From contig JAPWUP010000001.1 in NCBI GenBank assembly GCA_028275505.1, forward strand, positions 19,826 through 83,825: a DNA stretch of 64,000 nt. The letters run 5' to 3'. Of the stretch, positions 26,789 to 45,895 are shown in pieces. This DNA is from Bryobacteraceae bacterium. GTDB taxonomy: Bacteria; Acidobacteriota; Terriglobia; Bryobacterales; Bryobacteraceae. The notes beneath the pieces were generated by a model that ran no database searches, was not told the DNA's origin, and saw nothing but the letters and a program-made list of their open reading frames with translations. Positions within the stretch are counted from its first letter, which is position 1. Every line of letters starts with the position of its first letter. The translations under genes were made by a program, and so were the position numbers.

Positions 26789-28381
26789 ATGTCAGAAAGA
26801 GTCGAATCCTGGACCCGCAGGGAATGGCTGCAAGGCGTGACTTGCGGCCTGGCCTCGGCGGCCGGGCAGGCTAGCCAGGCCGTTACCGAGTCACCCTACC
26901 GAACTTACTGGGGGGATTTGCACAACCACAATCTGATCGGCTACGCGCAGGGCTCCCTGCGACGGACCTTCGAGATCGCCCGCGAGCACCTGGATTTCTT
27001 TGCCTTCACGCCTCACGCCCACTGGCACGACATCGGCCATTACGAGAACGCCATTGAAAACAAGTGGATCAACGGCTTTGCCGTCACGCGAGCGCGCTGG
27101 CCCGAGGTCGTGCGAATGGCGCGCGAGTTCGATTCGCCGGGGCGCTTCGTCCCCATTCTGGGCTACGAGTGTCACTCGGCCAGTTTGGGCGACTACCACA
27201 TTCTCTTCCCCGACCTCGATGCCGAGCTCGAGCTGTTTGACGATTTGCGCCGCTGGCAGGAGTTCGCCCGCCGGCGAGGATGTTTGCTGATCCCTCACCA
27301 CCCTGCTTGCCGGCAAGGCCACCGGGGCGCCAACATCGCTTTTCTGGATCCCTCAGTTTCGCCTGTGCTTGAGGTCTACTCGGAATGGGGCAACGCCGAG
27401 CACGACCGCGCGCCCTTCCCTTACGTCCGCCATACTGAACCCGGTCGCTGGACTCGCAACACCTGGCAATACTTTCTCTCCCAAGGCCACCGGCTCGGCG
27501 TCATTGCTTCCACCGACGATCACCTGGGCTACCCCGGGGCCTATCGCGAAGGACTGGCGGCAGTGAAGGCGCGGGAGCTGAGCCGGCCCGCCATTTTCGA
27601 GGCCCTGCGCGCGCGTCGCTGCTACGCCGTCACCGGGGACCGGATCGCGCTCGAGTTCACACTCAATGGCCACAGGATGGGCGAGGAGCTGCCTTATGCG
27701 CGGCACCGCGAAATCCAGGTGCAAGTGAGCGGCTGGGATCAGGTGGATCGCGTGGAAGTTCTCAAGAACAACCGCGTGCTCCATCGCGATTTCCCCTGCG
27801 ATCGCATCCCGTCAGCTCGAAGCTGGGAGCGACCTGTGCTAGTGCGTTTCGAATTCGGTTGGGGACCCTGGCCGGCGCTTGGCATCACGCGCGTCTGCGA
27901 CTGGGAAATGCGGATCAGCGTGGAGGGAGGTCAGATCGCAGCCTTCCAGACCTGCTTCCAGTCGGGGCCGCTGGACGAGAGTCGGCGTGACCGCGTGCTG
28001 GAGGCCGGCCCCCAGCAGATTCGTGTCCGTTCATTCACTGCGCTGCGCGAGCGCATTGATGATATCTCGACCAAGGCCGTGGTGCTGAAGATCCAGGGCC
28101 GCCCCGACACCCGCCTTACCGTCGCCCTCGAGCAGCCCGTGCGCACGAGCCTGACGCAGACGCTGGCCCAGTTGAGCGAGAGTTCGGAGATGCTGTTCAC
28201 CGGCGACTTTCCCAAGGAGTCGGCCATGCTGCATCGGCTGGTGTTCGCGGACCACTACGATACGCAGTTCACTCTGCGCGACGAGGATCCCGGCGGCGAG
28301 CCCACCTGGTACTACGTTCGCGTGGTGCAGGCCAACGGCCAGCTCGCCTGGTCCAGCCCCATCTGGGTCGCGTCGGCGTAA
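26789..28381 (+). CDS. DUF3604-like (PHP-fold) protein with Tat-like signal
   Basis: 530 aa; WTRREWLQG near N-terminus; YRTYWGDLHNHNLIGYAQGSLRRTFEIAREHLDFFAFTPHAHWHD...IASTDDHLGYPGAYREGLAAV. Confidence 0.75.
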   Translation: MSERVESWTRREWLQGVTCGLASAAGQASQAVTESPYRTYWGDLHNHNLIGYAQGSLRRTFEIAREHLDFFAFTPHAHWHDIGHYENAIENKWINGFAVTRARWPEVVRMAREFDSPGRFVPILGYECHSASLGDYHILFPDLDAELELFDDLRRWQEFARRRGCLLIPHHPACRQGHRGANIAFLDPSVSPVLEVYSEWGNAEHDRAPFPYVRHTEPGRWTRNTWQYFLSQGHRLGVIASTDDHLGYPGAYREGLAAVKARELSRPAIFEALRARRCYAVTGDRIALEFTLNGHRMGEELPYARHREIQVQVSGWDQVDRVEVLKNNRVLHRDFPCDRIPSARSWERPVLVRFEFGWGPWPALGITRVCDWEMRISVEGGQIAAFQTCFQSGPLDESRRDRVLEAGPQQIRVRSFTALRERIDDISTKAVVLKIQGRPDTRLTVALEQPVRTSLTQTLAQLSESSEMLFTGDFPKESAMLHRLVFADHYDTQFTLRDEDPGGEPTWYYVRVVQANGQLAWSSPIWVASA

Positions 28382-28546
28382 GTGAGCCTGCACGCTACCT
28401 CGCGGGCAGCGAAGCCACGTGCGCAGAAGAAGGCATCCACCCATGGCCCAACAATCTCCAGGGTTCGGGCGCGCAACCGCGCCAGCCGCTGGCAGCCGGC
28501 CTACCCAGAAAAATGCATAGAGTAAAATACGCCGAGGGATGAGACT

Positions 28547-29953
28547 ATGAAGCTCACACGTCGCAGCCTGCTATCCGGCGTTGCCGCGCCCGCGATCCTT
28601 CAACAGCCCAAAAACAAACCCAACATCCTTTTCCTGTTGTCCGACGATCACAGTTATCCCTACCTCGGCGTTTACGGCGCCAGGTGGATGTCCACGCCCA
28701 CCCTGGATCGCCTGGCCGCCGAGGGCCTGCGCTTTGACAGGATGTTCACCTCTTCCCCGCAATGCGTTCCCTCGCGTGCGGCGTTCATGACCGGCCAGTC
28801 GCCGGTCGCGGTTCGCGTAGGGCGTTTCAACACTCCGCTGCCGCCCGACGTGAAAAGCCTTCCGGAATATCTGCGCGAACTCGGTTACTACACCGGGGTT
28901 TGCGGCCGGTATTTCCACCTGGACGGCGTGATCAAAGCCGGCCCCATTACCCAGCGCGTCTACGAGAAATACGGATTGAAGACCTGGAACAAACGGGTGG
29001 ATTACCTCGACGTGAGCCCGCAAGGACAGACGCCCGCCAGGTTCCGCGAATTTCTCTCACGCGTGCCCAGGAACACGCCGTGGTTCCTCTGGATCAACTT
29101 CAGCGATCCCCATCACGTGTGGGACAAAGACGCCGGTCACGTAAATCCTGCGGCGATCGAATTGCCGCCGCATCTGCCGGACCTTCCGGGGGTACGAGAA
29201 GACCTGGCCCGATACTGCGGAGAGATCGAGCGTCTGGATTCCCTGGTGGCTGAAAACCTGGAAGTCCTGCGGAAAAGCGGTCAGGAGGAAAACACTCTGG
29301 TGTTATTCGCAGGGGACAACGGCATGGCGTTCCCCCACGGCAAAGGATCCTTGTACGATCCGGGGTTGCACGTGCCGCTCATCGTCCGATGGCCGGGTCG
29401 GGGACGGACCGGCGTAACCGACGCGCTGATCTCGGGCGAGGACCTCGCGCCGACTTTCATCGAGGCAGCAGGCGGGAAACCTCCGGAACGGATGACCGGC
29501 CGCAGCTTCCTGGGATTGATTACGGGCGGTTCTTACCAGCCGCGCAAATATATCTTTGCCCAGCGCCTGCACCACGGTAACCAGCCTTTCACGGCGAATA
29601 CAAAATCCGCAGGCTTCGACCTGGGCCGCTGCGTCCGCAGCGATCGGTGGAAGCTGATCTATAACTGCACGCCGTACATGGAATACCAGCCCACCGACAG
29701 CGCCCGGGATCCGAGCTGGCAACAAATCGTCCAAGCCCACGCCGAGGGTAAACTCCCGCCCGCCATCGAGCGCGCTTACTTCCAGCGACCCCGGCCTGTA
29801 ATCGAGCTTTATGATCTGGCAAAGGATCCCGGCGAACTCAACAACCTGGCCGGCGATCCGAACTACAAAGCGGTTCAGGAAGAACTGATCGCTGCTCTCA
29901 CCGAAAAGATGATCATTGACTTCGACTTCCTGCCGCCACCTACGGCGGACTGA
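28547..29953 (+). CDS. Sulfatase (N-sulfoglucosamine sulfohydrolase-like)
   Basis: 468 aa; LTRRSLLSG Tat-like signal; NILFLLSDDHSYPYLGVYG; SPQCVPSRAAFMTGQSP (CxPxR). Confidence 0.9.
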   Translation: MKLTRRSLLSGVAAPAILQQPKNKPNILFLLSDDHSYPYLGVYGARWMSTPTLDRLAAEGLRFDRMFTSSPQCVPSRAAFMTGQSPVAVRVGRFNTPLPPDVKSLPEYLRELGYYTGVCGRYFHLDGVIKAGPITQRVYEKYGLKTWNKRVDYLDVSPQGQTPARFREFLSRVPRNTPWFLWINFSDPHHVWDKDAGHVNPAAIELPPHLPDLPGVREDLARYCGEIERLDSLVAENLEVLRKSGQEENTLVLFAGDNGMAFPHGKGSLYDPGLHVPLIVRWPGRGRTGVTDALISGEDLAPTFIEAAGGKPPERMTGRSFLGLITGGSYQPRKYIFAQRLHHGNQPFTANTKSAGFDLGRCVRSDRWKLIYNCTPYMEYQPTDSARDPSWQQIVQAHAEGKLPPAIERAYFQRPRPVIELYDLAKDPGELNNLAGDPNYKAVQEELIAALTEKMIIDFDFLPPPTAD

Positions 29954-31453: not shown

Positions 31454-32020
31454 TCAATCCAGCGGCTGTCGCACATCCCAGACTTCCTCCCCGGGCAGCG
31501 AGCCAGTTCCTTCCTTGGCTCCGTTCCCTCGCTCCTCTGTCCCTACCGCAATTCCAGCCGCGCCCGCAGCTCCGGCAGCCCGGACGGCCCCCAAATCATC
31601 ACGCTCTTTTTTCGACCACGCCTCAGCCACCTGGGCGAGCGTTGTCTCCCGGAGGTACCGCAAGATTTCGGACCTCACTTTCTCCCAGGAAGCGTGCATC
31701 GGACAAGGCGACGCTTCATTGCACTCTGCAATCCCCGTAAAGCATTGCCGGAACTGGCCAAGCCCGTCCACCGCCTCCACGACGTCAATCAAAGCAACCT
31801 TGGACGCAGGCACCCGGAGCCGGAAACCTCCCGTTAGCCCGGGGCTGGAACTTACAATGCCCGCACGAACCAACTGGTGGAGAACCTTGGCCAAGAAAGC
31901 GTACGGGATGTTTTCCTTGGCGGCAATCTCACGGGCCTTCAGCGGCGCGCCCGGCCCCTCGCGCGCCAGGCGAACCAAGGCCTTCACGGCGTAAGCGCAG
32001 GCTCGCGAGCAAACGAGCAT
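31454..32020 (-). CDS. Rrf2-family transcriptional regulator
   Basis: 188 aa; CAYAVKALVRLAREGPGAPLKAREIAAKENIPYAFLAKVLHQLVRAGIVSSSPGLTGGFRL; Cys-containing FRQCFTGIAECNEASPCPMHASW. Confidence 0.9.
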   Translation of the reverse strand: MLVCSRACAYAVKALVRLAREGPGAPLKAREIAAKENIPYAFLAKVLHQLVRAGIVSSSPGLTGGFRLRVPASKVALIDVVEAVDGLGQFRQCFTGIAECNEASPCPMHASWEKVRSEILRYLRETTLAQVAEAWSKKERDDLGAVRAAGAAGAAGIAVGTEERGNGAKEGTGSLPGEEVWDVRQPLD

Positions 32021-32234: not shown

Positions 32235-32263
32235 TTGATTCCTTTTGCCGCCCCGATTATTAT
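32235..32263 (+). promoter_or_regulatory. Candidate sigma70 promoter of the hdr/nuo/mvh operon
   Basis: TTGATT-N17-TATTAT; RBS ggaggg at 32311 before ATG 32320. Confidence 0.55.
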
Positions 32264-32319
32264 ACTGTCTGGAAGTTCCGGCCGCCAAGAAAAAAATTTC
32301 GGCGGTCCGAGGAGGGCAC

Positions 32320-32997
32320 ATGATCAGGCAATCCCACCGCCTGCCCGGCGCGCTACCCCCTCGCGAGCGGGAACTCCGGGAAACCTTCCTCAAGCAGGTC
32401 GAACTGGTCCCGGGAGGAGACCGCCTGTCCCGTTGCTTGCAGTGCGGTACGTGCACGGGGAGTTGTCCGGTCAGTTACGCCATGGATCTTTCGCCGCGCA
32501 TGATGATCGCCCTTTTCCGGGCGGGCATGATCGAAGAGATCTTGCACAGCCGCTCGATCTGGATTTGTGCTTCCTGCTACATGTGCACCACCCGGTGCCC
32601 CCAGCAAATCAAGATCACCGACCTGCTGTACGCGCTCAAACGCGTCGCCATGGAAAAGAAACTCTACCCGGATCGCTTCCCGGTCTATCTGCTTTCCAAC
32701 AGCTTTGTGAGGCTGCTTTATCGCTATGGCCGCAACCATGAGCTGCTTCTGCTCCTGCGTTTCCAGCTTCGCCGGGATCCGCTCCAACTGTTGCGCATGC
32801 TGCCACTGGGATGGGCCATGTACCGCCGGGGAAGGCTCGCCCTCTGGCCGAAACGCATTCACGGCGTTTCCGCAATCCGCCAGATGATTGACGCGGCGAA
32901 AACGCTGGAGCTGCCGCGCGAAGCCGCGCCGCTGGAGTTCGTGCCGGGCGCCATCGGCTACCGGGCCGTCGGTCAACTGCCCGAAAAGGCGGTTTGA
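32320..32997 (+). CDS. hdrC: Heterodisulfide reductase subunit C-like ferredoxin
   Basis: CLQCGTCTGSCPVSYAMDLSPRMMIALFRAG...WICASCYMCTTRCPQQIKITDLLYALKRVAMEK. Confidence 0.9.
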   Translation: MIRQSHRLPGALPPRERELRETFLKQVELVPGGDRLSRCLQCGTCTGSCPVSYAMDLSPRMMIALFRAGMIEEILHSRSIWICASCYMCTTRCPQQIKITDLLYALKRVAMEKKLYPDRFPVYLLSNSFVRLLYRYGRNHELLLLLRFQLRRDPLQLLRMLPLGWAMYRRGRLALWPKRIHGVSAIRQMIDAAKTLELPREAAPLEFVPGAIGYRAVGQLPEKAV

Positions 32998-33007
32998 GGA
33001 GGTGGGC

Positions 33008-33874
33008 ATGGAATACCTGTACTATCCGGGATGCAGTCTGGAAGGCGCTGCCCGCCAGTATGACGAAAGCCTTCGTGCGGTATTCCAGGCCCTCGGGGTG
33101 GGTCTCCGCCCGCTCGAGGACTGGAACTGCTGTGGCGCAACCATTTACATGAGCGTGGACGAGACCACTTCGCTGGCGGTCAGCGCGCGCAACCTGGCCC
33201 TGGCCGGGCGCGACGGGCAGCGCGATCTCATCGCGCCTTGCAGCGCCTGCTACACCGTCCTTCTGAAGACGAATCGCTACCTTACCGAAAGTCCTGAACT
33301 GCGCCAGAAAGTAGACGCCCTGCTCGCCAAGGCCGGTCTCAGCTATCGGCTCAATGTCACGGTCCGTCATCCTCTGGACGTGCTGGTCAACGACGTCGGC
33401 ATCGAGCGGATCGCGGCGGCCGCCTCCCGCCGCCTCGATGGGCTGCGCGTGGCCCCATACTATGGCTGCCAGATCGTCCGGCCCGAGCGGGGCTTCGATC
33501 ACTCCGAGTTCCCGGAAACCATGGATCGCCTCTTCCGCGCGCTGGGCGCCGAACCCGTCTACTACCCGGTCAAGACGCGCTGCTGCGGCGGTATGCTCAT
33601 GACCACCTTCCGGGATGTGGCGCTGGATCTGGTGCGCGAACTGCTCTCCTGCGCCGTCGAAAACGGGGCCGAGTGCATCGTCACCACCTGCCCCATGTGT
33701 CAGGTGAATCTGGAACTCTACCAGGACCAGGTCAACCAAGCGTTCAAGACCTCGTATCGCGTGCCGGTTCTCTTCTTCACGCAACTGCTGGGACTGGCGC
33801 TGGGATGCGAGGAGAAATCTTTGGGCCTGCAAAGGAATCTGATCCCCTTCCAGCTGGGCGTGGCAACCGCCTAG
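33008..33874 (+). CDS. hdrB: Heterodisulfide reductase subunit B-like (two CCG domains)
   Basis: MEYLYYPGCSLEGAARQYDESLRAVFQALGV...NCCGATIYM...CSACY ... CCGGMLMTTFRD...CPMCQVNLELYQ; both CCG motifs intact. Confidence 0.92.
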   Translation: MEYLYYPGCSLEGAARQYDESLRAVFQALGVGLRPLEDWNCCGATIYMSVDETTSLAVSARNLALAGRDGQRDLIAPCSACYTVLLKTNRYLTESPELRQKVDALLAKAGLSYRLNVTVRHPLDVLVNDVGIERIAAAASRRLDGLRVAPYYGCQIVRPERGFDHSEFPETMDRLFRALGAEPVYYPVKTRCCGGMLMTTFRDVALDLVRELLSCAVENGAECIVTTCPMCQVNLELYQDQVNQAFKTSYRVPVLFFTQLLGLALGCEEKSLGLQRNLIPFQLGVATA

Positions 33875-33886
33875 GAGGTGCCTGCG

Positions 33887-34732
33887 ATGCAGCAAAACGG
33901 CAACGTCCGCATCGGGGTTTACATCTGCCATTGCGGCGCCAACATCGCCTCCACCGTCAAGGTGGACGAAGTGCGCCAGTTCATCAGCTCGGCGCCGGGC
34001 GTGGTCGTCGCCCGCGATTACAAATTCATGTGTTCGGATCCGGGCCAGGACCTCATCCGCAACGACATCGCGCAACTGGGCCTGAACCGCGTCGTGGTGG
34101 CCGCCTGCTCTCCGCTCATGCACGAGCTGACCTTCCGCAACGCCGCCGCCAAGGCAGGCCTGAACCGCTATCTGGTCCAGATCGCGAACATTCGCGAGCA
34201 CTGCTCGTGGATTCACGACGACGCGCGCATGGCCACGCAGAAAGCCAAGGCCCTGGTTCTGGCCGCGGTGCGGCGGGTGGCGCTCCATCAGCCGCTGGAG
34301 CCGCTGCGCGCGCCGGTGAATCCCAACGTCCTGGTGGTGGGCGGCGGCATCGCAGGCATCCAGGCCGCGCTCGAGCTGGCCGAGGCCGGACACACCGTCT
34401 ATTTGGTCGAGCGTGAGCCTTCCATCGGCGGGCGCATGGGCGTCTTCGACAAAACGTTTCCGACCCTGGACTGCGCCGCCTGCATTCTCACGCCCAAGAT
34501 GGTTTCCGTCGGGCACCGGCCCAACATCAAACTGCTCACGCTGAGCGAGGTCACCGGGGTCTCCGGCTACATCGGCAACTTCAAGGTCCGCGTGCGGCGC
34601 TATGCGCGCTATGTGGACGAAACCAAGTGCACCGGCTGCGGCCAGTGCTGGAACGTGTGCCCGGCCACGCGCGTGCCGCGCAACCGCACCATCTGGCTGG
34701 GCAAGCAAGTGGTCAAGCGGGTGACGTCATGA
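33887..34732 (+). CDS. hdrA: HdrA N-terminal half only (Cys-rich N-domain + first FAD lobe + one 4Fe-4S motif)
   Basis: RIGVYICHCGANIASTVKVDEV...YKFMCSDPGQDLIRNDIAQLGLNRVVVAACSPLMHELTFRNA...VLVVGGGIAGIQAALELAEAGHTVYLVEREPSIGGRMGVFDKTFPTLDCAACILTPKMV...CTGCGQCWNVCPATRVPRN then stop. Confidence 0.9.
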   Translation: MQQNGNVRIGVYICHCGANIASTVKVDEVRQFISSAPGVVVARDYKFMCSDPGQDLIRNDIAQLGLNRVVVAACSPLMHELTFRNAAAKAGLNRYLVQIANIREHCSWIHDDARMATQKAKALVLAAVRRVALHQPLEPLRAPVNPNVLVVGGGIAGIQAALELAEAGHTVYLVEREPSIGGRMGVFDKTFPTLDCAACILTPKMVSVGHRPNIKLLTLSEVTGVSGYIGNFKVRVRRYARYVDETKCTGCGQCWNVCPATRVPRNRTIWLGKQVVKRVTS

Positions 34733-35124
34733 GGCTGGAGGAAATTCGCCGGATCCTGAACTGTGAGGTTCTGAGCGGCGATGAGGACCTCGAGCAGGAG
34801 GTCGTCGCCGGCTGCGGCGCCGATCTGATGAGCGACGTGCTGGCTTTCGCCACGCCCGGGTCGGTTCTGCTCACCGGCCTCACCAACGTTCAGGCCGTGC
34901 GCACCGCGGACGTGGCCGACATCAAAGCCATCGTTTTTGTCCGCGGCAAGCTTCCCGACAGGGAAGCGATCGAACTGGCCAGGATTAAGGGAATCCCGCT
35001 GCTGGCCACGCGGTTGACCATGTTCGAAGCCTGCGGCCGGCTTTGGGCCGCGGGCCTGCGCGGGCAACCGGAGCAGGAACAGCCCCAGAATGCCGGGAGC
35101 GTCCGTCTTCACACAACAGTTTGA
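34729..35124 (+). CDS. DRTGG-like domain protein (copy 1)
   Basis: 131 aa; ATGA overlap with hdrA-N; MRLEEIRRILNCEVLSGDEDLEQEVVAGCGADLMSDVLAFATPGSVLLTGLTNVQAVRTADVADIKAIVFVRGK. Confidence 0.65.
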   Translation: MRLEEIRRILNCEVLSGDEDLEQEVVAGCGADLMSDVLAFATPGSVLLTGLTNVQAVRTADVADIKAIVFVRGKLPDREAIELARIKGIPLLATRLTMFEACGRLWAAGLRGQPEQEQPQNAGSVRLHTTV

Positions 35125-35518
35125 GGTCCGGGGGAGGGATTTTGCCAATGCCGGGAGAGCTTCCACCGCGATCAAAGAGATTCTCAAGGAGATCGGGATT
35201 CCCCCGGCGACTGTGCGCCGTGCGGCCATTGCCGCTTACGAAGCGGAGATGAACGTCGTGCTCTACGCGCGCAAAGGCACCGTGGAGTTGCAGGTCAGCC
35301 CCCGGGAGATTCGCCTGCTCGTGCGCGACGAAGGCGACGGCATCCCCGATATCGAGCTGGCCATGCAGGAAGGCTACTCCACGGCATCGGAGGAAATTCG
35401 CGAAATGGGCTTCGGCGCCGGGATGGGGCTGCCGAACATTCGCAAGAATGCGGACGAGTTCCGCATCGAATCGGTGGTCGGACAGGGTACGGAACTGGAT
35501 ATCAGGATACGGCTTTGA
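35090..35518 (+). CDS. Anti-sigma-factor-like / RsbW-type HATPase
   Basis: 142 aa; AAYEAEMNVVLYARKGTVELQVSPREIRLLVRDEGDGIPDIELAMQEGYSTA...GFGAGMGLPNIRKNADEFRIES. Confidence 0.8.
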   Translation: MPGASVFTQQFEVRGRDFANAGRASTAIKEILKEIGIPPATVRRAAIAAYEAEMNVVLYARKGTVELQVSPREIRLLVRDEGDGIPDIELAMQEGYSTASEEIREMGFGAGMGLPNIRKNADEFRIESVVGQGTELDIRIRL

Positions 35519-35521
35519 GCC

Positions 35522-36805
35522 ATGGGCGATGATCTTCGCTCGGTGCGCGTGAACCCGGAACGCTGCCGGGGGCGCATGTCCTGCATGCGCGCATGCCCCA
35601 CCGAGGCGATTCGTATCCGCCAGGGGCGCGCCGTCATCCTCGAGGATCGCTGCATTGACTGCGGGGAGTGCGTGCGCGCCTGCCCCAACAGCGCCATCCA
35701 GCCCCTGACCGGTTCCTTCACCGACTTCGCCCGATTCAAGTACACCATCGCCCTGCCCTCGCCCGCCATCTACGGCCAGTTCCGCCGCGATATCCTGCCC
35801 GGCACCATCCTGCGCGCGCTCACCAGAATCGGCTTTGATGAAGCCTGCGATCTGACTTGGGCCACGGAAGCCGTCAGCGTCGCCATTGACGAGTTCCTGG
35901 CCGACTATCGCGGCCCGCTGCCGCTGATCTCGCCCTTCTGCCCTGCTGTGGTCCGGCTCGTGCAGGCCCGCTTCCCCGCTCTGGTGGACCAGCTCGTGCC
36001 CATTGACTCGCCCATGGAGATCGCTGCCCGCGAGATCAAGAATCGCAAGGCGCGGGAGCTGGGCTTGCCCATGGACGAGATCGGCGTGATCTATCTCACT
36101 CCCTGCCCCGCCAAGATCGTAGCCGTCGAATACCCGCCGCGCAAGCGCGCCTCCTATCTGGACGGGGCCATCGCGATCTCCGATATCTATCAGCCGCTGT
36201 TGGCCGCGGTGTCGCGCGAGGCCGAGCAACCCGCAGATGCCGAGGCCGTCAAGGGACTGGGTCTGGGCTGGCCCGTGCTGGGCGGTCAGGCGGCTTGTCT
36301 GCGAACCGAAGACACCCTGGCCGTGGGCGGGCTGCGCGACGTGGCGCGCATCCTCGAGGACGTGGAGAACGGCAAGCTGGGCGAACTCCAGTATCTGGAG
36401 TGTCACGCCTGCCCGCAGGGCTGCTGCTCTGGCCCGCTGACCGTCGAGAATCCTTACTTCGCGCGCAGCAAGATCCTGCACCTGGTGGATCGCTACGGGC
36501 GCCAGCCCGGCTGCTCCCGCGAGGAGATCCAGCGGCTCTATCGGCTGGGCTACTTCTCCCTGCCCGGGCGCTTCTCGCCGCAACCGTTCCCGCCGCTGGA
36601 CGCCGAAATCTCGCGGGCCATCGAGAAACGCGCACGCATGAAAGAGATCCTGGAGACGCTGCCGCACATTGACTGCGGCGCCTGCGGCGCGCCCACCTGC
36701 CACAGTTTCGCCGAAGACGTTGTGCAGGGACGCGCCGTGATCGAGGACTGCGTCGTGCTGGCCGCCGAACACGCTCGACGGAACCGGCACACCGCCCTGG
36801 CTTGA
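35522..36805 (+). CDS. [FeFe]-hydrogenase-like (putative sensory/non-catalytic) protein with N-terminal ferredoxin and C-terminal 4Fe-4S domain
   Basis: 427 aa; 2x4Fe-4S N-terminus; H-cluster-like motifs PLISPFCPAVV, TPCPAKIVAVEYP, LECHACPQGCCSGPL; C-terminal IDCGACGAPTCHSFAEDVVQG. Confidence 0.85.
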   Translation: MGDDLRSVRVNPERCRGRMSCMRACPTEAIRIRQGRAVILEDRCIDCGECVRACPNSAIQPLTGSFTDFARFKYTIALPSPAIYGQFRRDILPGTILRALTRIGFDEACDLTWATEAVSVAIDEFLADYRGPLPLISPFCPAVVRLVQARFPALVDQLVPIDSPMEIAAREIKNRKARELGLPMDEIGVIYLTPCPAKIVAVEYPPRKRASYLDGAIAISDIYQPLLAAVSREAEQPADAEAVKGLGLGWPVLGGQAACLRTEDTLAVGGLRDVARILEDVENGKLGELQYLECHACPQGCCSGPLTVENPYFARSKILHLVDRYGRQPGCSREEIQRLYRLGYFSLPGRFSPQPFPPLDAEISRAIEKRARMKEILETLPHIDCGACGAPTCHSFAEDVVQGRAVIEDCVVLAAEHARRNRHTALA

Positions 36806-36811
36806 GGAGGC

Positions 36812-37156
36812 ATGCCGATGACGGTACGCAGCATCGTCGAGGCGTTGGGGCTGGAGGTCCTCAACCAGGCGGATCCGGATCGCGAGGTCACCAGCGCCTA
36901 CGCCTCGGACCTGCTGAGCGACGTCATGGCTCATGCCTCGCCGGGTGCCCTGTGGTTGACGCTGCAAACCCATTCCAACGTCGCCGCGGTGGCGGCGCTC
37001 AAAGAACTGGTTGTACTGCTGGTCAACGGGCGCAATCCCGATTCCGACATGCTGGAACGCGCCCGCGAACACAAGGTCACCGTCCTGCGCACGTCGCTGC
37101 CCGCTTTTGAAGCGGCGGGACGGCTGTACGCGCTCGGTCTTCGTGGGGGGGCATGA
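36812..37156 (+). CDS. DRTGG-like domain protein (copy 2)
   Basis: MTVRSIVEALGLEVLNQADPDREVTSAYASDLLSDVMAHASPGALWLTLQTHSNVAAVAALKELVVLLVNGRNPD...LPAFEAAGRLYALGLRGG; parallels copy 1. Confidence 0.6.
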   Translation: MPMTVRSIVEALGLEVLNQADPDREVTSAYASDLLSDVMAHASPGALWLTLQTHSNVAAVAALKELVVLLVNGRNPDSDMLERAREHKVTVLRTSLPAFEAAGRLYALGLRGGA

Positions 37157-37926
37157 TGCGAGTCTGGCGCGCCGACCTGCACGTGCACACCTGCCTGTCG
37201 CCCTGCGCCGATCTCAGCATGGCGCCACGCACGATCGTCGCCGCGGCGCTCGAGCGAGGCCTGGATGCCATCGGCGTGGCTGACCACAACTCCGCAGGCA
37301 ACATCCCGGCCGTCGTGGGCGCAGCGCGCCAGACTCGCCTTGCGGTTCTGCCCGCCATGGAGATCACTTCGCGCGAGGAGGTTCACATCCTCGCCATCTT
37401 CGGCGACCTGGAGGCGGCCCGGGCCATGCAGGAGGTCGTCTACCAGCGCCTCCCCGGCGAGAACCAGCCCGAGATCTTCGGGCTTCAGGTCCTGGTCAAC
37501 GAAGACCACGACGTGCTCGGATTCGAGCCACGCCTGCTGGCGGGCGCCACCGAGATGAGCGTCAGCGAAATCGTCCAGCGCGTGCACACACTGGGCGGGC
37601 TGGCCATCGCCGCCCATGCCGATCGCGAAGCGTTCGGCCTTCTCGGCCACTTGGGGTTCGTTCCGCCGGACCTGGCGCTGGACGCGGTGGAGCTTTCCCC
37701 GCACATGCCCGCGGCCGAATTCCGCAAGCGTTGGCCCGAATGCGCCGCCCTTGCCGTGGTGCGTTCTTCGGACGCCCACTGGCCCGAGCAGATCGGCGCC
37801 TGCACAACGAGCTTCCGCTTGCAGCGGATTACAGTGGACGAACTGCGACAGGCCTTCGCCCGCCGCGAGGGCCGCTGCGTGGTGAACGAGGGCAACGAAG
37901 GGGCGAGTGAGCCATGGAGGAACTAG
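37153..37926 (+). CDS. PHP-domain metal-dependent phosphoesterase
   Basis: 257 aa; WRADLHVHTCLSPCADLSMAPRTIVAAALERGLDAIGVADHNSAGN...GLAIAAHADR...RSSDAHW. Confidence 0.85.
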   Translation: MMRVWRADLHVHTCLSPCADLSMAPRTIVAAALERGLDAIGVADHNSAGNIPAVVGAARQTRLAVLPAMEITSREEVHILAIFGDLEAARAMQEVVYQRLPGENQPEIFGLQVLVNEDHDVLGFEPRLLAGATEMSVSEIVQRVHTLGGLAIAAHADREAFGLLGHLGFVPPDLALDAVELSPHMPAAEFRKRWPECAALAVVRSSDAHWPEQIGACTTSFRLQRITVDELRQAFARREGRCVVNEGNEGASEPWRN

Positions 37927-38495
37927 CCTTGCACATGCTCGACCTGGCTGAAAACTCCATCGCCGCGGGCGCCCGGCGCGTGGACATCCGCGTGACGGAA
38001 GATCCCGCGAGCGACCGGCTCGTCCTGGAAGTTCGCGACGACGGCTCGGGGATGCCGGAGGAAGTCGCCCGGCGCGCCGCCGACCCCTTCTTCACCACGC
38101 GCCAGACGCGGCCCGTGGGCCTGGGACTGGCGCTTCTGGACCAGGCCGCTCGCATGGCTGGCGGAAGCCTGCGCATCGAGTCCGAGCCCGGCGTCGGAAC
38201 CACGGTCAGGGCGGAGTTTCAACTGAGTCACCCGGACCGCCAGCCGCTGGGCGATGTGGCGGCTACTTTGCTCGCCTTGGCGGCCGGACATCCCGAGATC
38301 GAGTTCTCCTACGAACATCGCGGCGCAGATTTCTCGACCCGCTTCGATACGGCGGAATTCCGGCGCAGCCTAGGGGACGTGGCGCCCCACAGCCCTGCCG
38401 CCATCTCGGCTCTGCGCCGGGCGCTGGCGGAAGCGCTGCGCGCCTTGCACCGCGATAGCAGGCAGGAGGTCAGTCATGGATCTGGCAACCATTGA
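37914..38495 (+). CDS. Histidine-kinase-like ATPase domain protein
   Basis: MLDLAENSIAAGARRVDIRVTEDPASDRLVLEVRDDGSGMPEEVARRAADPFFTTRQTRPVGLGLALLDQAARMAGGSLRIESEPGVGTTVRAEF; N, G1, F and G2 boxes; no His phosphorelay domain. Confidence 0.85.
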   Translation: MEELALHMLDLAENSIAAGARRVDIRVTEDPASDRLVLEVRDDGSGMPEEVARRAADPFFTTRQTRPVGLGLALLDQAARMAGGSLRIESEPGVGTTVRAEFQLSHPDRQPLGDVAATLLALAAGHPEIEFSYEHRGADFSTRFDTAEFRRSLGDVAPHSPAAISALRRALAEALRALHRDSRQEVSHGSGNH

Positions 38496-38955
38496 GAGCA
38501 TCATCCGGCAGCATGGGGGCCAGAAAAGCGCCCTGATCGCCATGCTCCAGGACGTCCAGCAACAGTACACGTACTTGCCCAAGGACGTCCTCCAGTACCT
38601 TTCACGCACGCTCAACGTGCCTCTCAGCCGGGCTTACAGCCTGGCCACCTTCTACCGCGCTTTCAGCCTGAAACCGAAAGGCCGGCATCCCATCTCGGTC
38701 TGCCTCGGTACGGCCTGTCACGTCAAGGGCGCGGTGAAGATCCTGGAGAAGTTCGAGCGTGAGCTGGGCATCAAAACCGGGCAGACGACGCCCGACCTCA
38801 TGTTCGGCCTGGAACAGGTGCGCTGCCTGGGGTGCTGCGGGCTGGCGCCCGTGGTCACCGTGGGACAGGATCTCTACGGCAAGGTCACCGTGTCCAAGGT
38901 GGATCAGATCATCAAGCGTTACCAGAAGCAGGAGGCGGCACATGCCAAAGCTTAA
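38476..38955 (+). CDS. nuoE: NuoE/HydC-like 2Fe-2S subunit
   Basis: VCLGTACHVKGAVKILEKFERELGIKTGQTTPDLMFGLEQVRCLGCCGLAPVVTVG. Confidence 0.92.
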   Translation: MDLATIESIIRQHGGQKSALIAMLQDVQQQYTYLPKDVLQYLSRTLNVPLSRAYSLATFYRAFSLKPKGRHPISVCLGTACHVKGAVKILEKFERELGIKTGQTTPDLMFGLEQVRCLGCCGLAPVVTVGQDLYGKVTVSKVDQIIKRYQKQEAAHAKA

Positions 38956-39325
38956 GATCGAGGACCTGGCGCGCATCCGCGAGCAAGCCCGCCGCGCCAC
39001 CCTGCTGCGCGAAGGAGCCGGACGCGTCAAGATCACCGTGCACCTGGGCACCTGCGGGATCGCCGCCGGCGGGCGCAACATCATGACCGCCGTGCTGCGC
39101 GAGATCGAGGAACGCAACCTGCACGACGTGCTGGTCACGACCTCCGGCTGCGCCGGCCTGTGCAGTCGCGAACCCATGATGACAGTCGAGGTGCTCGGCC
39201 AGCCCCCGGTCAAGTACGTGGACCTGACCGAGGGCAAGGTCAAGGAAATCTTCGCCGAGCACATCGTGGGAGGAAAGATCGCCGACCGCTATGCCCTGGC
39301 TGTGGGCAGCGAGCGGGTGATGTGA
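38942..39325 (+). CDS. Thioredoxin-like (2Fe-2S) ferredoxin
   Basis: ITVHLGTCGIAAGGRNIMTAVLREIEERNLHDVLVTTSGCAGLCSREPMMTVEVLGQPPVKYVDLTEGKVKEIFAEH. Confidence 0.85.
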   Translation: MPKLKIEDLARIREQARRATLLREGAGRVKITVHLGTCGIAAGGRNIMTAVLREIEERNLHDVLVTTSGCAGLCSREPMMTVEVLGQPPVKYVDLTEGKVKEIFAEHIVGGKIADRYALAVGSERVM

Positions 39326-39334
39326 GGAGGAGCC

Positions 39335-41194
39335 ATGCCTTATCGCGTCCATTGCATGGTTTGCGCCGGGACGGGATGCGTCTCCAACCGGTCCCTGGAA
39401 GTGCGCGACGCCCTCGAAAACGAAATCCGCAAACGCGGCCTTCAGGACGAGATCCAGATCGTCACCACAGGCTGCAACGGCTTCTGCGCCGTCGGCCCCC
39501 TCATGGTCGTGCAGCCGGATGGAATCTTCTACCAGCAGGTTTCGGCCAAGGACGTCCCGCTGCTCGTGGAAGAGCACTTCATCAAAGGCCGGCCGGTACA
39601 GAAGCTGCTGTACAAGCCGCCCGAAGCCGCCGCGCCCATCCCCAAAATGTCCGACATTCCCTTCTTCAAGCACCAGCGCCTCATCGCCTTGCGCAACCGC
39701 GGACTGATTGACCCCGAGAAGATCGAGGACTATATTGCGCGCGACGGCTACCAGGCGCTGGTCAAGGCACTCACCGAGATGACGCCCGAGCAGATCATTG
39801 AGGTGATCACCAAGTCCGGACTGCGCGGGCGCGGAGGGGCCGGCTTCCCCACTGGCGTTAAGTGGCAGAAGGTCCGGCAGGCCAAGGGCGAGCCCAAATA
39901 CATCATCTGCAACGGAGACGAGGGCGACCCGGGCGCCTTCATGGACCGCTCCATCTTCGAATCCGACCCGCACTCGGTCATCGAAGGCATGCTCATCGGA
40001 GCCCGCGCCATCGGCGCGCGTTACGGCGTGGTGTACATCCGCAACGAGTATCCGCTGGCGCTGGAGCGTATCCAGATCGCCATTCAGCAGGCGCGCGAGT
40101 ACGGGCTGCTGGGCGAAAACATCCTGGATTCCGGCCTCGACTTCGACATTTCCGTCACTCGCGGCGCTGGCGCTTTCGTCTGCGGCGAGGAAACGGCCCT
40201 GATCGCTTCGGTGGAAGGGCGCCTGGGCGATCCCCGCGCACGCCCGCCTTATCCGGCCGAGTACGGGCTGTGGGGCAAGCCCACCTGCATCAACAACGTC
40301 GAAACCTGGGCCAACGTGCCGCCCATCATCCTGCACGGCTGGGAGTGGTACTCGCAAATTGGCACCGAGCGCAGCAAAGGCACCAAGGTCTTCTCGCTGG
40401 TGGGCAAGGTGCGCAACACCGGGCTGGTGGAAGTCCCCATGGGAATCACGTTGCGCCAGCTCATCTACGACATCGGCGGCGGCATCCCGGGCGACAAGAA
40501 GTTCAAAGCCGTGCAGACGGGCGGCCCTTCGGGCGGCTGCATCCCGGCGGGCATGATGGACCAGCCCATCGAGTACATCGCACCCGACGGCAAGCGGGAA
40601 GCTCGCGATTACCTCGACCTGCCCATTGATTACGAGAGCCTCACGGACGTCGGCTCCATGATGGGGTCGGGCGGCCTGGTGGTCATGGACGAGGACACCT
40701 GCATGGTGGACGTGGCCCGCTACTTCCTGGCCTTCACGCAGGACGAGTCCTGCGGCGCCTGCACGCCTTGCCGCGAGGGCACCAAGCTCATGCTGGACAT
40801 CCTGAACCGCATCGTGGATGGCCACGGCACCATGGACGATTTGCGGGCGCTGGAAGAGATCGCCTGGGTCGTCAAGCAGACCTCGCTCTGCGGTCTGGGC
40901 AAGACGGCGCCCAATCCTGTGCTGACCACCCTGAAGTATTTCCGGGACGAGTACCTGGCCCACATCGAAGCGCACAAGTGCCCGGCCCACGTCTGCCGCG
41001 CGCTCAATACCTATCGCATAGATCCCGTGATCTGCGTCGAGCGCGGACACGGCTGCGGCGTCTGCCGGCGCGAGTGTCCGGAAAAGGCCATCTTCGGCGA
41101 AAAGAACCAGCCGCACCGCATTGACCAGACGCTGTGCAAGAAGTGCGGCGTATGCGTGGAGGTCTGCCACTTCAACGCGGTGATCGTGGAATGA
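39335..41194 (+). CDS. nuoF: NuoF/HydB-like NADH-binding (FMN, Fe-S) subunit with N-terminal 2Fe-2S and C-terminal 2x4Fe-4S domains
   Basis: SGLRGRGGAGFPTGVKW, YIICNGDEGDPGAFMDR, GAGAFVCGEETALIASVEGRLG, DESCGACTPCREGT; C-terminal CVERGHGCGVCRRECPEKAI...CKKCGVCVEVCHFNAV. Confidence 0.95.
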   Translation: MPYRVHCMVCAGTGCVSNRSLEVRDALENEIRKRGLQDEIQIVTTGCNGFCAVGPLMVVQPDGIFYQQVSAKDVPLLVEEHFIKGRPVQKLLYKPPEAAAPIPKMSDIPFFKHQRLIALRNRGLIDPEKIEDYIARDGYQALVKALTEMTPEQIIEVITKSGLRGRGGAGFPTGVKWQKVRQAKGEPKYIICNGDEGDPGAFMDRSIFESDPHSVIEGMLIGARAIGARYGVVYIRNEYPLALERIQIAIQQAREYGLLGENILDSGLDFDISVTRGAGAFVCGEETALIASVEGRLGDPRARPPYPAEYGLWGKPTCINNVETWANVPPIILHGWEWYSQIGTERSKGTKVFSLVGKVRNTGLVEVPMGITLRQLIYDIGGGIPGDKKFKAVQTGGPSGGCIPAGMMDQPIEYIAPDGKREARDYLDLPIDYESLTDVGSMMGSGGLVVMDEDTCMVDVARYFLAFTQDESCGACTPCREGTKLMLDILNRIVDGHGTMDDLRALEEIAWVVKQTSLCGLGKTAPNPVLTTLKYFRDEYLAHIEAHKCPAHVCRALNTYRIDPVICVERGHGCGVCRRECPEKAIFGEKNQPHRIDQTLCKKCGVCVEVCHFNAVIVE

Positions 41195-41198
41195 GGGG

Positions 41199-42974
41199 GT
41201 GAACATGATCTCACTGACGATCAACGGAACCCGAACCGAGGTCCGCGAGGGAACCACGATTCTGCAAGCGGCCAGGTTTTTGGAGATCCCGATTCCCACG
41301 CTCTGTTACCACCCGTGGCTGAAGCCCTTCGGCGCCTGCCGGATCTGCACCGTGCAGGTCCAGCGCCCGCGCGGCTACGAACTGGTCACCGCCTGCAACA
41401 CCCCCTGCGAAGAGGGCATGGTCATCCAGACCGACACGGATCATGTGCGGCAGGCGCGGCGCGTGGTGGTCGAACTGATGATGGCGCGCTGGCCCAACGT
41501 CCCCATCGTCCAGAAGCTGGCGGCCGAGGTGGGACTGGAGAAGCCGCGCTTCATCAGCGAAATGCGTGACGAGGCGCCCGATGCTTGCATCCTTTGCCTG
41601 CGCTGCGTGCGCATCTGCGAAGAAGTGGTGGGGGCGTGCGCCATCGGTTACGAAGACCGCGGCATCAAGCGCAAGGTGGTGACGCCCTTCCACGAAGAGT
41701 CGGAAGCCTGCGTGGCCTGCGGCGCCTGCGCGCACGTCTGCCCCACCGGGCACATGAAGTTCGAACCGGAGGACTACCGCGGCAAGCCGCCCGAGTTCCT
41801 GCTCGGTCCGAACACGGCCATCCACGTCATGACGCCGCAGGCCGTGCCGAAAGTCCCTCGCATTGACCGCGAAAGCTGCATCCATTTCAAGACCAACGGC
41901 TGCCAGAAGTGCGTCGAGGTCTGCGAGGCCAAAGCCGTCAACCACGAGATGACGGACCAGGAGTTGGAGATCGAAGTGGGCCAGATCCTGGTGGCCACCG
42001 GCTACGACCTGTTCGACGCCTCGGTCATGGCCCAGTACGGCTACGGCCGGCTGGACAACATTTACACCGCCCTGGACATCGAACGGATGCTCAATGCGAC
42101 GGGGCCTACCGGCGGCCAGATCCGCCTGAAGAACGGCCAGCCGCCGCGCGCCGTGGGCATCATCCACTGCGTGGGTTCGCGCGACGAGAACTACCACCGC
42201 TACTGTTCGCGCGTCTGCTGCATGTACGCGCTCAAGTTCGCGCACCTGATCAAGGAACGCTGCCCGGAGGCCGAAGTCTACAACTTCTACATTGACATGC
42301 GCGCCTTCGGCAAAGGCTACGAGGAGTTCTATTCCCGCGTGCTGCACGAGGGCGTCAATGTGATCCGCGGCAAGGTAGCCGAGGTGGTCCAGGCAGGCTG
42401 GTCCAAGCAGGAGGAAGGGACCCTGCTCATCCGTTGCGAGGACACGCTCATCGGGAAGCTCCGCGAGATCCCGGTGGATATGGTCATCCTGTGCAACGCG
42501 ATCGAGCCTCGCCGCGACGCCGAACGGGTGGCGCGGCTCTTTGGCCTCAGCCGCAGCCCGGACGGCTTCTTCCTGGAGCGCCACCCCAAGCTGGACCCGG
42601 TGGCGACTTCCTCCGACGGCCTGTTCGTGGCCGGCTGCGCGCAGGGGCCCAAGGATATTCCCGATACGGTGGCCCAGGCCAGTGCCGCCGCCGCCCGCAT
42701 GCTGGCCACCATCGCCAAAGGCGTGGTCGAAATGGATCCGGTGCGCGCCGAGATCAACGAGGAGTATTGCAGCGGATGCAGGGTCTGCAACGCCTTGTGT
42801 CCTTATGAAGCCATCGAATACCTCGAGGACAAGAACGTTTCGCGCGTGAATTCTGCCTTGTGCAAGGGCTGCGGCACCTGCGTGGCCGCATGTCCGGCGG
42901 GCGCCATCACGGGTTACGGTTTCAGCGACCTGCAATTGCACGCGGAACTGGAAGGTCTGCTGGCGGTTCGCTGA
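41199..42974 (+). CDS. Fusion: NuoG/HoxU-like 2Fe-2S + 2x4Fe-4S module joined to HdrA C-terminal half
   Basis: N-term ISLTINGTRTEVREGTTILQAARFLEIPIPTLCYHP...GACRICTVQVQ; ACILCLRCVRICEEVVGACAIGYEDRG; then HdrA signatures PQAVPKVPRIDRESC, VATGYDLFDASVMAQYGYGR, HCVGSRDENYHRYCSRVCCMYALKFAHLIKE, FYIDMRAFGKGYEEFYSRV, GLFVAGCAQGPKDIPDTVAQASAAAARM, 2x4Fe-4S. Confidence 0.92.
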   Translation: MNMISLTINGTRTEVREGTTILQAARFLEIPIPTLCYHPWLKPFGACRICTVQVQRPRGYELVTACNTPCEEGMVIQTDTDHVRQARRVVVELMMARWPNVPIVQKLAAEVGLEKPRFISEMRDEAPDACILCLRCVRICEEVVGACAIGYEDRGIKRKVVTPFHEESEACVACGACAHVCPTGHMKFEPEDYRGKPPEFLLGPNTAIHVMTPQAVPKVPRIDRESCIHFKTNGCQKCVEVCEAKAVNHEMTDQELEIEVGQILVATGYDLFDASVMAQYGYGRLDNIYTALDIERMLNATGPTGGQIRLKNGQPPRAVGIIHCVGSRDENYHRYCSRVCCMYALKFAHLIKERCPEAEVYNFYIDMRAFGKGYEEFYSRVLHEGVNVIRGKVAEVVQAGWSKQEEGTLLIRCEDTLIGKLREIPVDMVILCNAIEPRRDAERVARLFGLSRSPDGFFLERHPKLDPVATSSDGLFVAGCAQGPKDIPDTVAQASAAAARMLATIAKGVVEMDPVRAEINEEYCSGCRVCNALCPYEAIEYLEDKNVSRVNSALCKGCGTCVAACPAGAITGYGFSDLQLHAELEGLLAVR

Positions 42975-42986
42975 CAAGGAGGAGCC

Positions 42987-43451
42987 ATGAACCAGCAGCA
43001 ACGATTTGAGCCTCGCATCGTGGGCTTCCTTTGCAACTGGTGCTCGTACACGGGCGCTGATCTGGCCGGCGTCAGCCGGATGAAATCAGCTCCCAACCTG
43101 CGCACGATCCGCGTCATGTGCAGCGGCCGCGTGGATCCCACGCTGGTACTGCGCGCGTTTCAACTGGGCGCGGACGGCGTCCTGGTGGCAGGCTGCCATC
43201 CCGGCGACTGCCACTACCAGGAGGGCAACTACAAGGCCATGCGCCGCGTGCTGCTGCTCAAGCGCGTGCTCCGAGAGTTCGGAATTGACGAGCGGCGCCT
43301 GCGCCTGGAATGGATCTCGGCCAGCGAGGGCGAAAAATTCGCGCGGGTGGCCAACGAGTTCACCGAGCAGGTCCGGGCGCTGGGACCGCTCCAGCTCGAG
43401 GAGGCGCCCGCGGCCGTCGCTGAGCCCCAGCTCGAGGAGGTGCGGGCATGA
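42987..43451 (+). CDS. mvhD: MvhD-like hydrogenase/Hdr linker subunit (2Fe-2S)
   Basis: RIVGFLCNWCSYTGADLAGVSRMKSAPNLRTIRVMCSGRVDPTLVLRAFQLGADGVLVAGCHPGDCHYQEGNYKAMRR. Confidence 0.93.
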   Translation: MNQQQRFEPRIVGFLCNWCSYTGADLAGVSRMKSAPNLRTIRVMCSGRVDPTLVLRAFQLGADGVLVAGCHPGDCHYQEGNYKAMRRVLLLKRVLREFGIDERRLRLEWISASEGEKFARVANEFTEQVRALGPLQLEEAPAAVAEPQLEEVRA

Positions 43452-44419
43452 GCAAACCCAAACTGGCTCTCTACTGGGCGGCCAGTTGCGGCGGTTGCGA
43501 AATCGCCGTGCTCGACGTGGAAGAAAAAATCCTCGACGTGGCCGCCTTCTTCGACATCGTCTTCTGGCCCTGCGCCATGGACTTCAAGTACAAGGACGTC
43601 CAGGCCATGGAAGACGGCAGCATTGACCTGTGCCTGTTCAACGGCGCCATCCGCACCAGCGAAAACGAAGCCATGGCGCGGCTGCTGCGGCGCAAGTCCA
43701 AGGTGCTGGTCGCTTTCGGCTCCTGCGCCACCGAGGGTTGCATTCCCGGCCTGGCCAACCTGACCACGAAAGAAGAAATCCTGGACTGGGTCTATCACCG
43801 CTCGCCCAGCACGGTGAACGAAAATGGCGTGCGGCCGCAGCCGCGTTTCCACGTGCCCGAGGGCGAGCTCGAAATCCCCGAATTTTACGAGGAGGTACGC
43901 ACGCTCGCCCAGGTGGTCCCCGTGGATTACTTCATCCCCGGCTGCCCGCCGCAGGCGCCCCAGATCGTCAACGTGCTCAGCGCCATCATGACCGGGGCGC
44001 CCCTGCCCCCGCCGGGATCGGTGATCGGAGCGGGCGAGAAGACCTGCTGCGACGAGTGCGGGCGCAAGCGGGAGGAGAAGCGGATCAAGCGCTTCTACCG
44101 GCCGTGGGAAATCGTCCCCGACCCCAACCAGTGCCTGCTCGACCAGGGCATCATCTGCCTGGGTCCGGCCACGCGCAGCGGCTGCGGCGCGTTGTGCGTT
44201 AAAGCGAACATGCCCTGCCGCGGCTGCTACGGCCCGCCGCCCAACGTGATGGACCAGGGCGCCAAAATGATCAGCGCTCTGGCCAGCGTGATTGACTCGC
44301 AGGATCCCGAAGAAGTGCAGCGGATTCTCGATCAGATTCCGGATCCGGCCGGGACTTTGTATCGCTTCAGCGTCCCGGCTTCCTTGCTGCATCGCAAGCG
44401 AACCCAAGTCACAGCATGA
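43448..44419 (+). CDS. mvhG: [NiFe] hydrogenase small subunit, group 3c/Mvh-like
   Basis: LALYWAASCGGCEIAVLDVEEKILDVAAFFDIVFWPCAMDFKY...VAFGSCATEGCIPGL...FIPGCPPQAPQI...CLGPATRSGCGALCVKANMPCRGCYGPP. Confidence 0.93.
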   Translation: MSKPKLALYWAASCGGCEIAVLDVEEKILDVAAFFDIVFWPCAMDFKYKDVQAMEDGSIDLCLFNGAIRTSENEAMARLLRRKSKVLVAFGSCATEGCIPGLANLTTKEEILDWVYHRSPSTVNENGVRPQPRFHVPEGELEIPEFYEEVRTLAQVVPVDYFIPGCPPQAPQIVNVLSAIMTGAPLPPPGSVIGAGEKTCCDECGRKREEKRIKRFYRPWEIVPDPNQCLLDQGIICLGPATRSGCGALCVKANMPCRGCYGPPPNVMDQGAKMISALASVIDSQDPEEVQRILDQIPDPAGTLYRFSVPASLLHRKRTQVTA

Positions 44420-44428
44420 GGAGGGGCT

Positions 44429-45895
44429 ATGCGGACCATCACGATTGATCCCATTACGCGGCTGGAAGGGCACGGCAAGATCACCATCTTCCTCAACGAC
44501 GACGGCGAAGTGGCCAACTGCTACTTCCAGGTCCCCGAGCTGCGGGGCTTCGAGCAGTTCTGCGTCGGGCGTCCGGTGGAGGAAATGCCGCGCATTACCA
44601 CGCGAATCTGCGGCGTCTGTCCGGAAGCTCACCACATGGCCAGCGTCAAGGCCTGCGATGCGGTCTATCACGTCGAGCCGCCGCCGGCCGCCAAAAAATT
44701 GCGCGAGCTGCTGTACTCGGCCTTCTTCGTCTCCGATCACACCCTTCACTTCTACGCTCTGGGCGGACCCGATTTCGTGGTCGGTCCGGACGCGCCTCCT
44801 GCCGAGCGGAACATCCTGGGAGTGATCCGCAAGGTCGGCCTGGAGGCGGGCAGTAAAGTCATCGAATTGCGCAAGCGTGCGGGCCGTACGGTGGCATTGA
44901 TTGGGGGCAAGTACGTTCACCCTGTCACGGCGCTGCCGGGCGGCATGGCCAAGCCGCTGACCCGCGAGGAGCGCGACGAGATCCTGGGTCACACCGATTA
45001 CTTCGTCGAGTTCGCCAAGTTCACCCTCGGCGTGATCGAAAACGTGGTTCTGAAGAACCCGGCCTACGTGGACATGATCCTGAGCGACACGTTCACCCAC
45101 CGCACGTACTCGATGGGCACGGTGGACGCCAACAACAAGGTCAATTTCTATGACGGCATGATCCGGGTAGTGGACCCCGATGGCAAGGAATTCGTGAAGT
45201 TCCATCCCAAGGACTACCTGGAGGTGCTGGGCGAGCACGTCGAGCCCTGGTCCTACCTGAAGTTCCCGTTCCTCAAAAAGGTGGGCTGGAAGGGGTTCGT
45301 GGATGGCAAGGACTCGGGCGTCTATCGCGCCACCCCGCTTTCCCGCCTCAACGCCGCCGACGGCATGGCTACCCCGCTGGCCCAGCAGGAGTACGAAAGG
45401 ATGTATTCCACGCTGGGCGGCAAGCCCGTGCACCACACCCTGGCCACGCATTGGGCGCGCGTCATCGAGCTGGTGTACGCCGCCGAGCGGGCAGCCGAGC
45501 TGGCGCGCGATGAGGAAATCCTCAGCGACAAAATCCGGAACATCCCGACCGCCACACCGGATGAAGGCGTCGGCTGCGTCGAGGCGCCGCGCGGCACCCT
45601 GTACCATCACTACGTGACCGACGAGCGGGGGCTGCTGCGCCGGGTCAACCTGATCGTTGGCACAACCAATAACCATGCCCCCATCGCCATGTCCATTCGC
45701 AAGGCTGCCTTCGGCCTGATCAAGCGCGGCGCTGAGATCACCGACGGCGTGCTGAACCGGATCGAAATGGCTTTCCGCGCTTACGACCCGTGCTTTGCCT
45801 GCGCCACGCACAGCTTGCCGGGCGCCATGCCCTTGGAAGTCGAGGTCATTGACTCGGATGGAACCCGCATCGCGGTCCGCCGGCGAGGGTGCTGA
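44429..45895 (+). CDS. mvhA: [NiFe] hydrogenase large subunit, group 3c/Mvh-like
   Basis: L1 TRICGVCPEAHHMASVKACD and L2 DPCFACATH with a 27-aa C-terminal tail SLPGAMPLEVEVIDSDGTRIAVRRRGC. Confidence 0.95.
   Translation: MRTITIDPITRLEGHGKITIFLNDDGEVANCYFQVPELRGFEQFCVGRPVEEMPRITTRICGVCPEAHHMASVKACDAVYHVEPPPAAKKLRELLYSAFFVSDHTLHFYALGGPDFVVGPDAPPAERNILGVIRKVGLEAGSKVIELRKRAGRTVALIGGKYVHPVTALPGGMAKPLTREERDEILGHTDYFVEFAKFTLGVIENVVLKNPAYVDMILSDTFTHRTYSMGTVDANNKVNFYDGMIRVVDPDGKEFVKFHPKDYLEVLGEHVEPWSYLKFPFLKKVGWKGFVDGKDSGVYRATPLSRLNAADGMATPLAQQEYERMYSTLGGKPVHHTLATHWARVIELVYAAERAAELARDEEILSDKIRNIPTATPDEGVGCVEAPRGTLYHHYVTDERGLLRRVNLIVGTTNNHAPIAMSIRKAAFGLIKRGAEITDGVLNRIEMAFRAYDPCFACATHSLPGAMPLEVEVIDSDGTRIAVRRRGC

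Follow-up and report, generated by a model that had tools for sequence, protein, structure and literature searches.

The protein encoded at 35522 to 36805 (+) of the window (the whole 64,000-nucleotide stretch of DNA analysed here) is, on balance, probably a relative of the group D [FeFe]-hydrogenases which lacks the [2Fe] subsite and serves as an Fe-S redox sensor, controlling the co-encoded Hdr-NuoEF-Mvh complex through a cassette of regulatory proteins. Three observations lead us to this reading: i) no maturases could be found in the source genome assembly; ii) relay residues have been lost; and iii) the gene is embedded in a regulatory gene cassette. The same observations support the original prediction that the protein is not a hydrogen producer; of the further proposal of a redox or H2 sensor, the redox part is supported, while sensing of H2 through the H-cluster is poorly supported because without HydE, HydF, and HydG there is no known route to the [2Fe] subsite.

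Domain structure and closest known group

The open reading frame has an ATG start, encodes 427 amino acid residues, and occupies the interval originally predicted; the four motifs read from it at that time (ISPFCPAVV, TPCPAKIVAVE, ECHACPQGCC, and IDCGACGAPTC) are all present. Pfam recognizes, each above its cut-off, an N-terminal double 4Fe-4S domain, an Fe_hyd_lg_C domain at residues 74-305 (E 1e-25), and a PF04060 FeS domain at residues 380-411, the last agreeing with the C-terminal 4Fe-4S domain that had been proposed. The top PDB fold matches of an AlphaFold2 model (pTM 0.84) are [FeFe]-hydrogenases (best E 2.4e-18), and sequence similarity to the solved relatives is low. The C-terminal tail reads C385-x2-C388-x4-C393-x16-C410, which is the Cx2Cx4Cx16C motif given for [FeFe]-hydrogenase groups C and D (PMC8163306); the chain stops 17 residues past C410, and no PAS domain was found by Pfam.

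Judged by sequence, the closest known group is group D of the TamHydS type: the N-terminal motifs, H-domain, and Cx2Cx4Cx16C are there and PAS is absent, the one departure being Arg18 in place of the second Cys of the first N-terminal cluster. Like TamHydS of Thermoanaerobacter mathranii (group D, M2e), the window protein has this domain order and C-terminal motif, no PAS, no C299, Ser or Thr at M353, and an adjoining gene for a histidine-kinase-like ATPase (PMC8163306); unlike TamHydS, it lacks E252, D265, K58, and one N-terminal Cys, has a [NiFe]-Hdr partner rather than HydABC, and comes from a genome in which maturases were not found. With group C (M2f) proteins such as TmHydS it shares the N-terminal clusters, H-domain, C-terminal cluster, and missing motif-1 Cys, but it has neither the PAS domain that follows the C-terminal cluster in group C nor any output domain, and our tree places it outside the group C outgroup.

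The gene neighborhood

The genes from 32245 to 45895, HdrC through MvhA, lie on the same strand and overlap or are separated by short gaps:

32245 to 32997 (+): HdrC-like subunit; the true start is probably inside the ORF
33008 to 33874 (+): HdrB-like subunit with CCG domains; start inferred inside ORF 32888-33874
33878 to 34732 (+): N-terminal part of HdrA
34729 to 35124 (+): DRTGG-domain protein 1; the ATG start overlaps the stop of the preceding gene
35090 to 35518 (+): SpoIIAB-like (HATPase_c_2) ATPase, directly upstream of the H-domain gene
35522 to 36805 (+): H-domain protein, with 2x[4Fe-4S] N-terminal domain, Fe_hyd_lg_C, and C-terminal FeS domain (Pfam and AlphaFold2)
36812 to 37156 (+): DRTGG-type protein 2 (24.2 bits, just below the Pfam cut-off of 25.2)
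37153 to 37926 (+): PHP-domain protein
37914 to 38495 (+): protein with a histidine-kinase-type ATPase domain
38476 to 38955 (+): NuoE-like subunit
38942 to 39325 (+): small ferredoxin-like protein, conserved between NuoE and NuoF; start inferred
39335 to 41194 (+): NuoF-like subunit
41199 to 42974 (+): Fer2 domain fused to the C-terminal part of HdrA
42987 to 43451 (+): MvhD (FlpD domain)
43448 to 44419 (+): MvhG, [NiFe] hydrogenase small subunit (Oxidored_q6)
44429 to 45895 (+): MvhA/VhuA-type [NiFe] hydrogenase large subunit

Since the RICGVC and DPCFAC motifs of MvhA are intact, we assign the H2 chemistry of the operon to the [NiFe] site. Inside this Hdr-NuoEF-Mvh operon lies a conserved cassette consisting of DRTGG, SpoIIAB-like ATPase, H-domain, DRTGG, PHP, and ATPase proteins.

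Three further features of the neighborhood deserve mention. HdrA is apparently split within its FAD domain, the N-terminal part (profile positions 1-257, with GGGIAG) adjoining HdrB and the C-terminal part (profile positions 238-641) lying 6.5 kb downstream in the Fer2 fusion, an arrangement which recurs in many related loci. An Rrf2-family gene at 31454 to 32020 (-), divergent from the start of the operon, is a candidate transcriptional regulator; proteins of this family often use Fe-S clusters. Upstream of the operon, at 25253 to 29953 (+), a DUF3604-like protein is flanked by two SGSH-type sulfatases.

A constant cassette with exchangeable partners

We searched for relatives in 297 genomes of the same phylum and in GTDB contigs, and recovered about a hundred full-length proteins, many from MAGs, spread over many phyla. 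Of 102 loci, 98 encode a homolog of the SpoIIAB-like ATPase directly upstream, and 94 of 96 have a DRTGG gene within 3 kb; NuoE and NuoF are the usual companions of the cassette. The catalytic enzyme adjoining it is [FeFe] HydA at 27 loci, Mvh-type [NiFe] hydrogenase at 22, and a molybdopterin protein, probably formate dehydrogenase, at 15, some of these on weak matches (the first formate dehydrogenase query was too broad owing to its ferredoxin domain and had to be replaced); at 42 loci none was seen on the fragment. That the ATPase and DRTGG genes are nearly constant while the catalytic partner varies among [FeFe], [NiFe], and molybdopterin enzymes supports a regulator working without [2Fe].

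The main competitor to a regulator is an electron-transfer subunit of Hdr-NuoEF-Mvh, or a component of a hybrid [FeFe]/[NiFe] complex. The gene does belong to the same operon as every subunit of the complex, the protein is rich in Fe-S sites, and hybrid [FeFe]/[NiFe] hydrogenases, which would provide a precedent, have reportedly been found in archaea. We nonetheless think this unlikely, because the constant neighbors are the SpoIIAB-like ATPase and DRTGG genes and not any one catalytic partner, the enzyme encoded by HydABC operons is complete without an H-domain protein of this kind, and a Cys is missing from the first N-terminal cluster.

The NuoEF-type electron-bifurcating Bfu family (PMC9304861) also has a NuoE/NuoF core with exchangeable [FeFe], [NiFe], and formate dehydrogenase partners, as do the enzymes adjoining the cassette. 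The paper describing that family mentions no DRTGG protein, PHP protein, or sensor, and the cassette seemingly goes untreated there; nor did a literature search pairing DRTGG with hydrogenase return any match.

H-cluster and proton-pathway residues

The original prediction that H-cluster ligands are retained holds for all four Cys of the cubane (C140, C195, C297, and C301), and as the equivalents of P354 and K358 are also kept (Pro194 and Lys198), the H-cluster pocket is not wholly degraded. Around the diiron site, C299 is replaced by Phe139, M353 by Thr193, M497 by His295, and E361 by Ala201, so that in the alignment bulky or polar residues (Phe139 and His295) occupy diiron-site positions. 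The M to T change originally read in motif 2 is thus correct, but the Glu read there is two residues off register. The first Cys of motif 1 is indeed lost, as had been noted, but this cannot carry the non-catalytic role that was built upon it: sensory groups C and D normally lack C299, its loss is uninformative alone, and we dropped the C299-to-Phe change as a main argument. In group D, loss of C299 is usual, and so is Ser or Thr at M353; TamHydS, with A137, S191, and L291, still turns over H2 (PMC8163306, PMC11803613).

The proton pathway proposed for group D comprises E252, E289, and D265 plus the moderately conserved S249, and TamHydS carrying E252V or E252D retains under 0.01% of H2 oxidation (PMC10407848). 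When TamHydS residue numbers are transferred by offset and alignment, E252 corresponds to Gln256 and D265 to Gly269 in the window protein, and of the three acidic residues only E289 is retained (Glu293). Lys58, which is conserved in group D near the N-terminal clusters (PMC13104023), is Ile59. The original prediction had taken in neither these three replacements nor His295 and Arg18.

A tree of the relatives, rooted on group C and built without the trait columns, places the window protein in a separate clade of 48 members (SH-aLRT 98) beside the HydABC-linked sequences; the branching order is left open, and TamHydS lies outside the sample. The clade, mostly attached to [NiFe]-Hdr or molybdopterin modules in place of [FeFe] HydABC, takes in the [NiFe]- and molybdopterin-linked members, except for L092 ([NiFe]) and L080 (a weak molybdopterin match), which are placed among the HydABC-linked sequences. 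D265 occurs in 0/48 clade members versus 50/57 others, and Lys at position 58 in 0/48 versus 55/57; E252 is kept in 17/48 (lost in 31/48) versus 53/57, and the second Cys of the first N-terminal cluster in 25/48 versus 57/57. Viewed by partner, the combination of Ala or Ser at C299 with glutamate at E252 is found in none of the 22 [NiFe]-linked proteins as opposed to 26 of the 27 [FeFe]-linked ones.

Maturases in the source genome and in related genomes

The statement that no HydEFG maturases are visible in the window can be extended by profile search to the whole source genome assembly, a 392-contig draft that is 98.9% complete with 3.4% contamination. There HydG had no match, HydE reached only 34 bits against a cut-off of 255, and HydF only 96 bits against 326; the matches to the HydF profile (TIGR03918) fall mainly in its GTPase part and were rejected. 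HypD is present (505 bits), and the H-domain protein is the sole Fe_hyd_lg_C protein of the genome. HydG, HydE, and HydF are described as required for [2Fe] assembly in vivo (PMC12752695).

In seventeen other phylum genomes (92-100% complete) every H-domain protein belongs to the clade, and neither HydF nor HydG was found in any of them; both are present in all eight phylum genomes in which a group A HydA occurs as well (0/18 versus 8/8 with the source genome included, p = 6e-7, kinship ignored). For three genomes HydG was read under a second handle (G302 for G060, G305 for G111, and G327 for G083). G060 agrees in coordinates and scores with the Aminicenantes MAG JdFR-78 (L045, G302), which makes Acidobacteriota the probable phylum. 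There are exceptions: i) G316, a Coatesbacteria MAG, has HydF and a partial HydG with a clade protein (L059) as its only H-domain protein, and is either a counter-example or an incomplete MAG; ii) G064 lacks HydF although it encodes a group C-like protein; and iii) G211 (84% complete) lacks it although a group A-like fragment is present. The protein of G064 (L131) is sensory and about 730 residues long, and as neither HydF nor HydG was found in that genome, maturase loss may also touch group C.

Absence from a single MAG is weak evidence, since HydF and HydG also went unfound in eight MAGs in which the neighbor is [FeFe] HydA. Over all genomes HydF correlates modestly with residue state (p = 0.003) with no support among independent pairs, and we therefore rely on the near-complete genomes of one phylum. 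Likewise, partner type and HydF switch together in the tree in only about two independent pairs, and much of that link may reflect kinship.

For the protein to be a normal group D sensor of H2 with its H-cluster complete, hydEFG would have to have been missed in the draft, or the cofactor would have to arrive by an unknown route. The 392 contigs leave some room for the former, and the retained cubane Cys, Lys198, Pro194, and Glu293 speak for such a sensor, as does the C-terminal cluster motif, which is exactly the one found in groups C and D (PMC8163306). However, the missing HydE, HydF, and HydG here, the lack of HydF and HydG in the 17 related genomes, and the loss of the E252, D265, and K58 equivalents make this distinctly improbable, more so than an electron-transfer role.

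Selection without maturases

The clade proteins of HydF-less genomes are under purifying selection: dN/dS is about 0.01, 0.12, and 0.25 in three pairs, the first near saturation at silent sites. Nar1/NARF are the other known H-domain proteins without [2Fe], and an Fe-S assembly factor of that kind would likewise combine an H-domain with Fe-S clusters and nothing more; this is very improbable, since the domain make-up, with PF04060 at the C-terminus, is that of groups C and D, and the gene lies in a regulatory cassette next to redox enzymes. Scarcely credible at all is the idea that a former [FeFe]-hydrogenase sensor is decaying here and no longer has a function, as loss of relay residues, of one ferredoxin Cys, and of maturases might suggest, given full-length ORFs in many phyla, nearly invariant cluster cysteines, and dN/dS well below 1 in all three measurable pairs.

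A proposed redox sensor

We most likely have, then, an H-domain protein without [2Fe], which would carry the [4Fe-4S]H cubane, the second N-terminal cluster, the C-terminal [4Fe-4S] cluster, and a first N-terminal cluster altered by replacement of one Cys ligand with Arg. From gene order, it probably senses redox state, and the signal could be that of the ferredoxin/NADH pool served by NuoEF or of the neighboring enzyme; the signal would then pass, probably by a change of shape, to the SpoIIAB-like ATPase (the path to which gene order also makes probable) and to the DRTGG, PHP, and second ATPase proteins, which in turn would control the Hdr-NuoEF-Mvh [NiFe] complex. TamHydS reportedly undergoes a change in secondary structure when it reacts with H2 (cited in PMC13104023), suggesting that the group D scaffold can switch shape, but H2 left the redox state of the C-terminal cluster of TamHydS unchanged.

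More tentatively, and with slightly more doubt than belief, we suggest that there is a widespread H-domain family which never acquires [2Fe] and for which the signal is redox rather than H2; the cassette would then be a general regulator of NuoEF-bifurcating enzymes with any partner, and H2 sensing by group D a special case. Land et al. reasoned from the good conservation of HydEFG that the H-cluster is arguably common to all [FeFe]-hydrogenase groups (PMC8163306). By gene content the 48-member clade looks like an exception, in which selection maintains the H-domain fold and the cubane in the absence of maturases and of the group D proton pathway. This suggests that signalling by the group D scaffold may go with the bifurcating NuoEF module rather than with H2. 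Doubt about H2 sensing has been voiced for the group C1 [FeFe]-hydrogenases of Hydrogenedentota, whose H-cluster motifs were hard to find (PMC11406978); unlike those proteins, which adjoin group A3 enzymes, the window protein keeps the cubane Cys, has a [NiFe] partner, and comes from a genome with maturases missing.

Two small groups of relatives depart further from the H-cluster consensus. In a subclade beside NuoEF and molybdopterin enzymes (L158, L159, L164, L104, L171, L067, and L167), K358, the residue expected to hold a [2Fe] cyanide, is replaced by Ile or Met; in L166 and L173 the cubane ligand C499 is replaced by His and P354 by Thr, and the genomes that encode them (G030 and G068) have HydF and a group A HydA.
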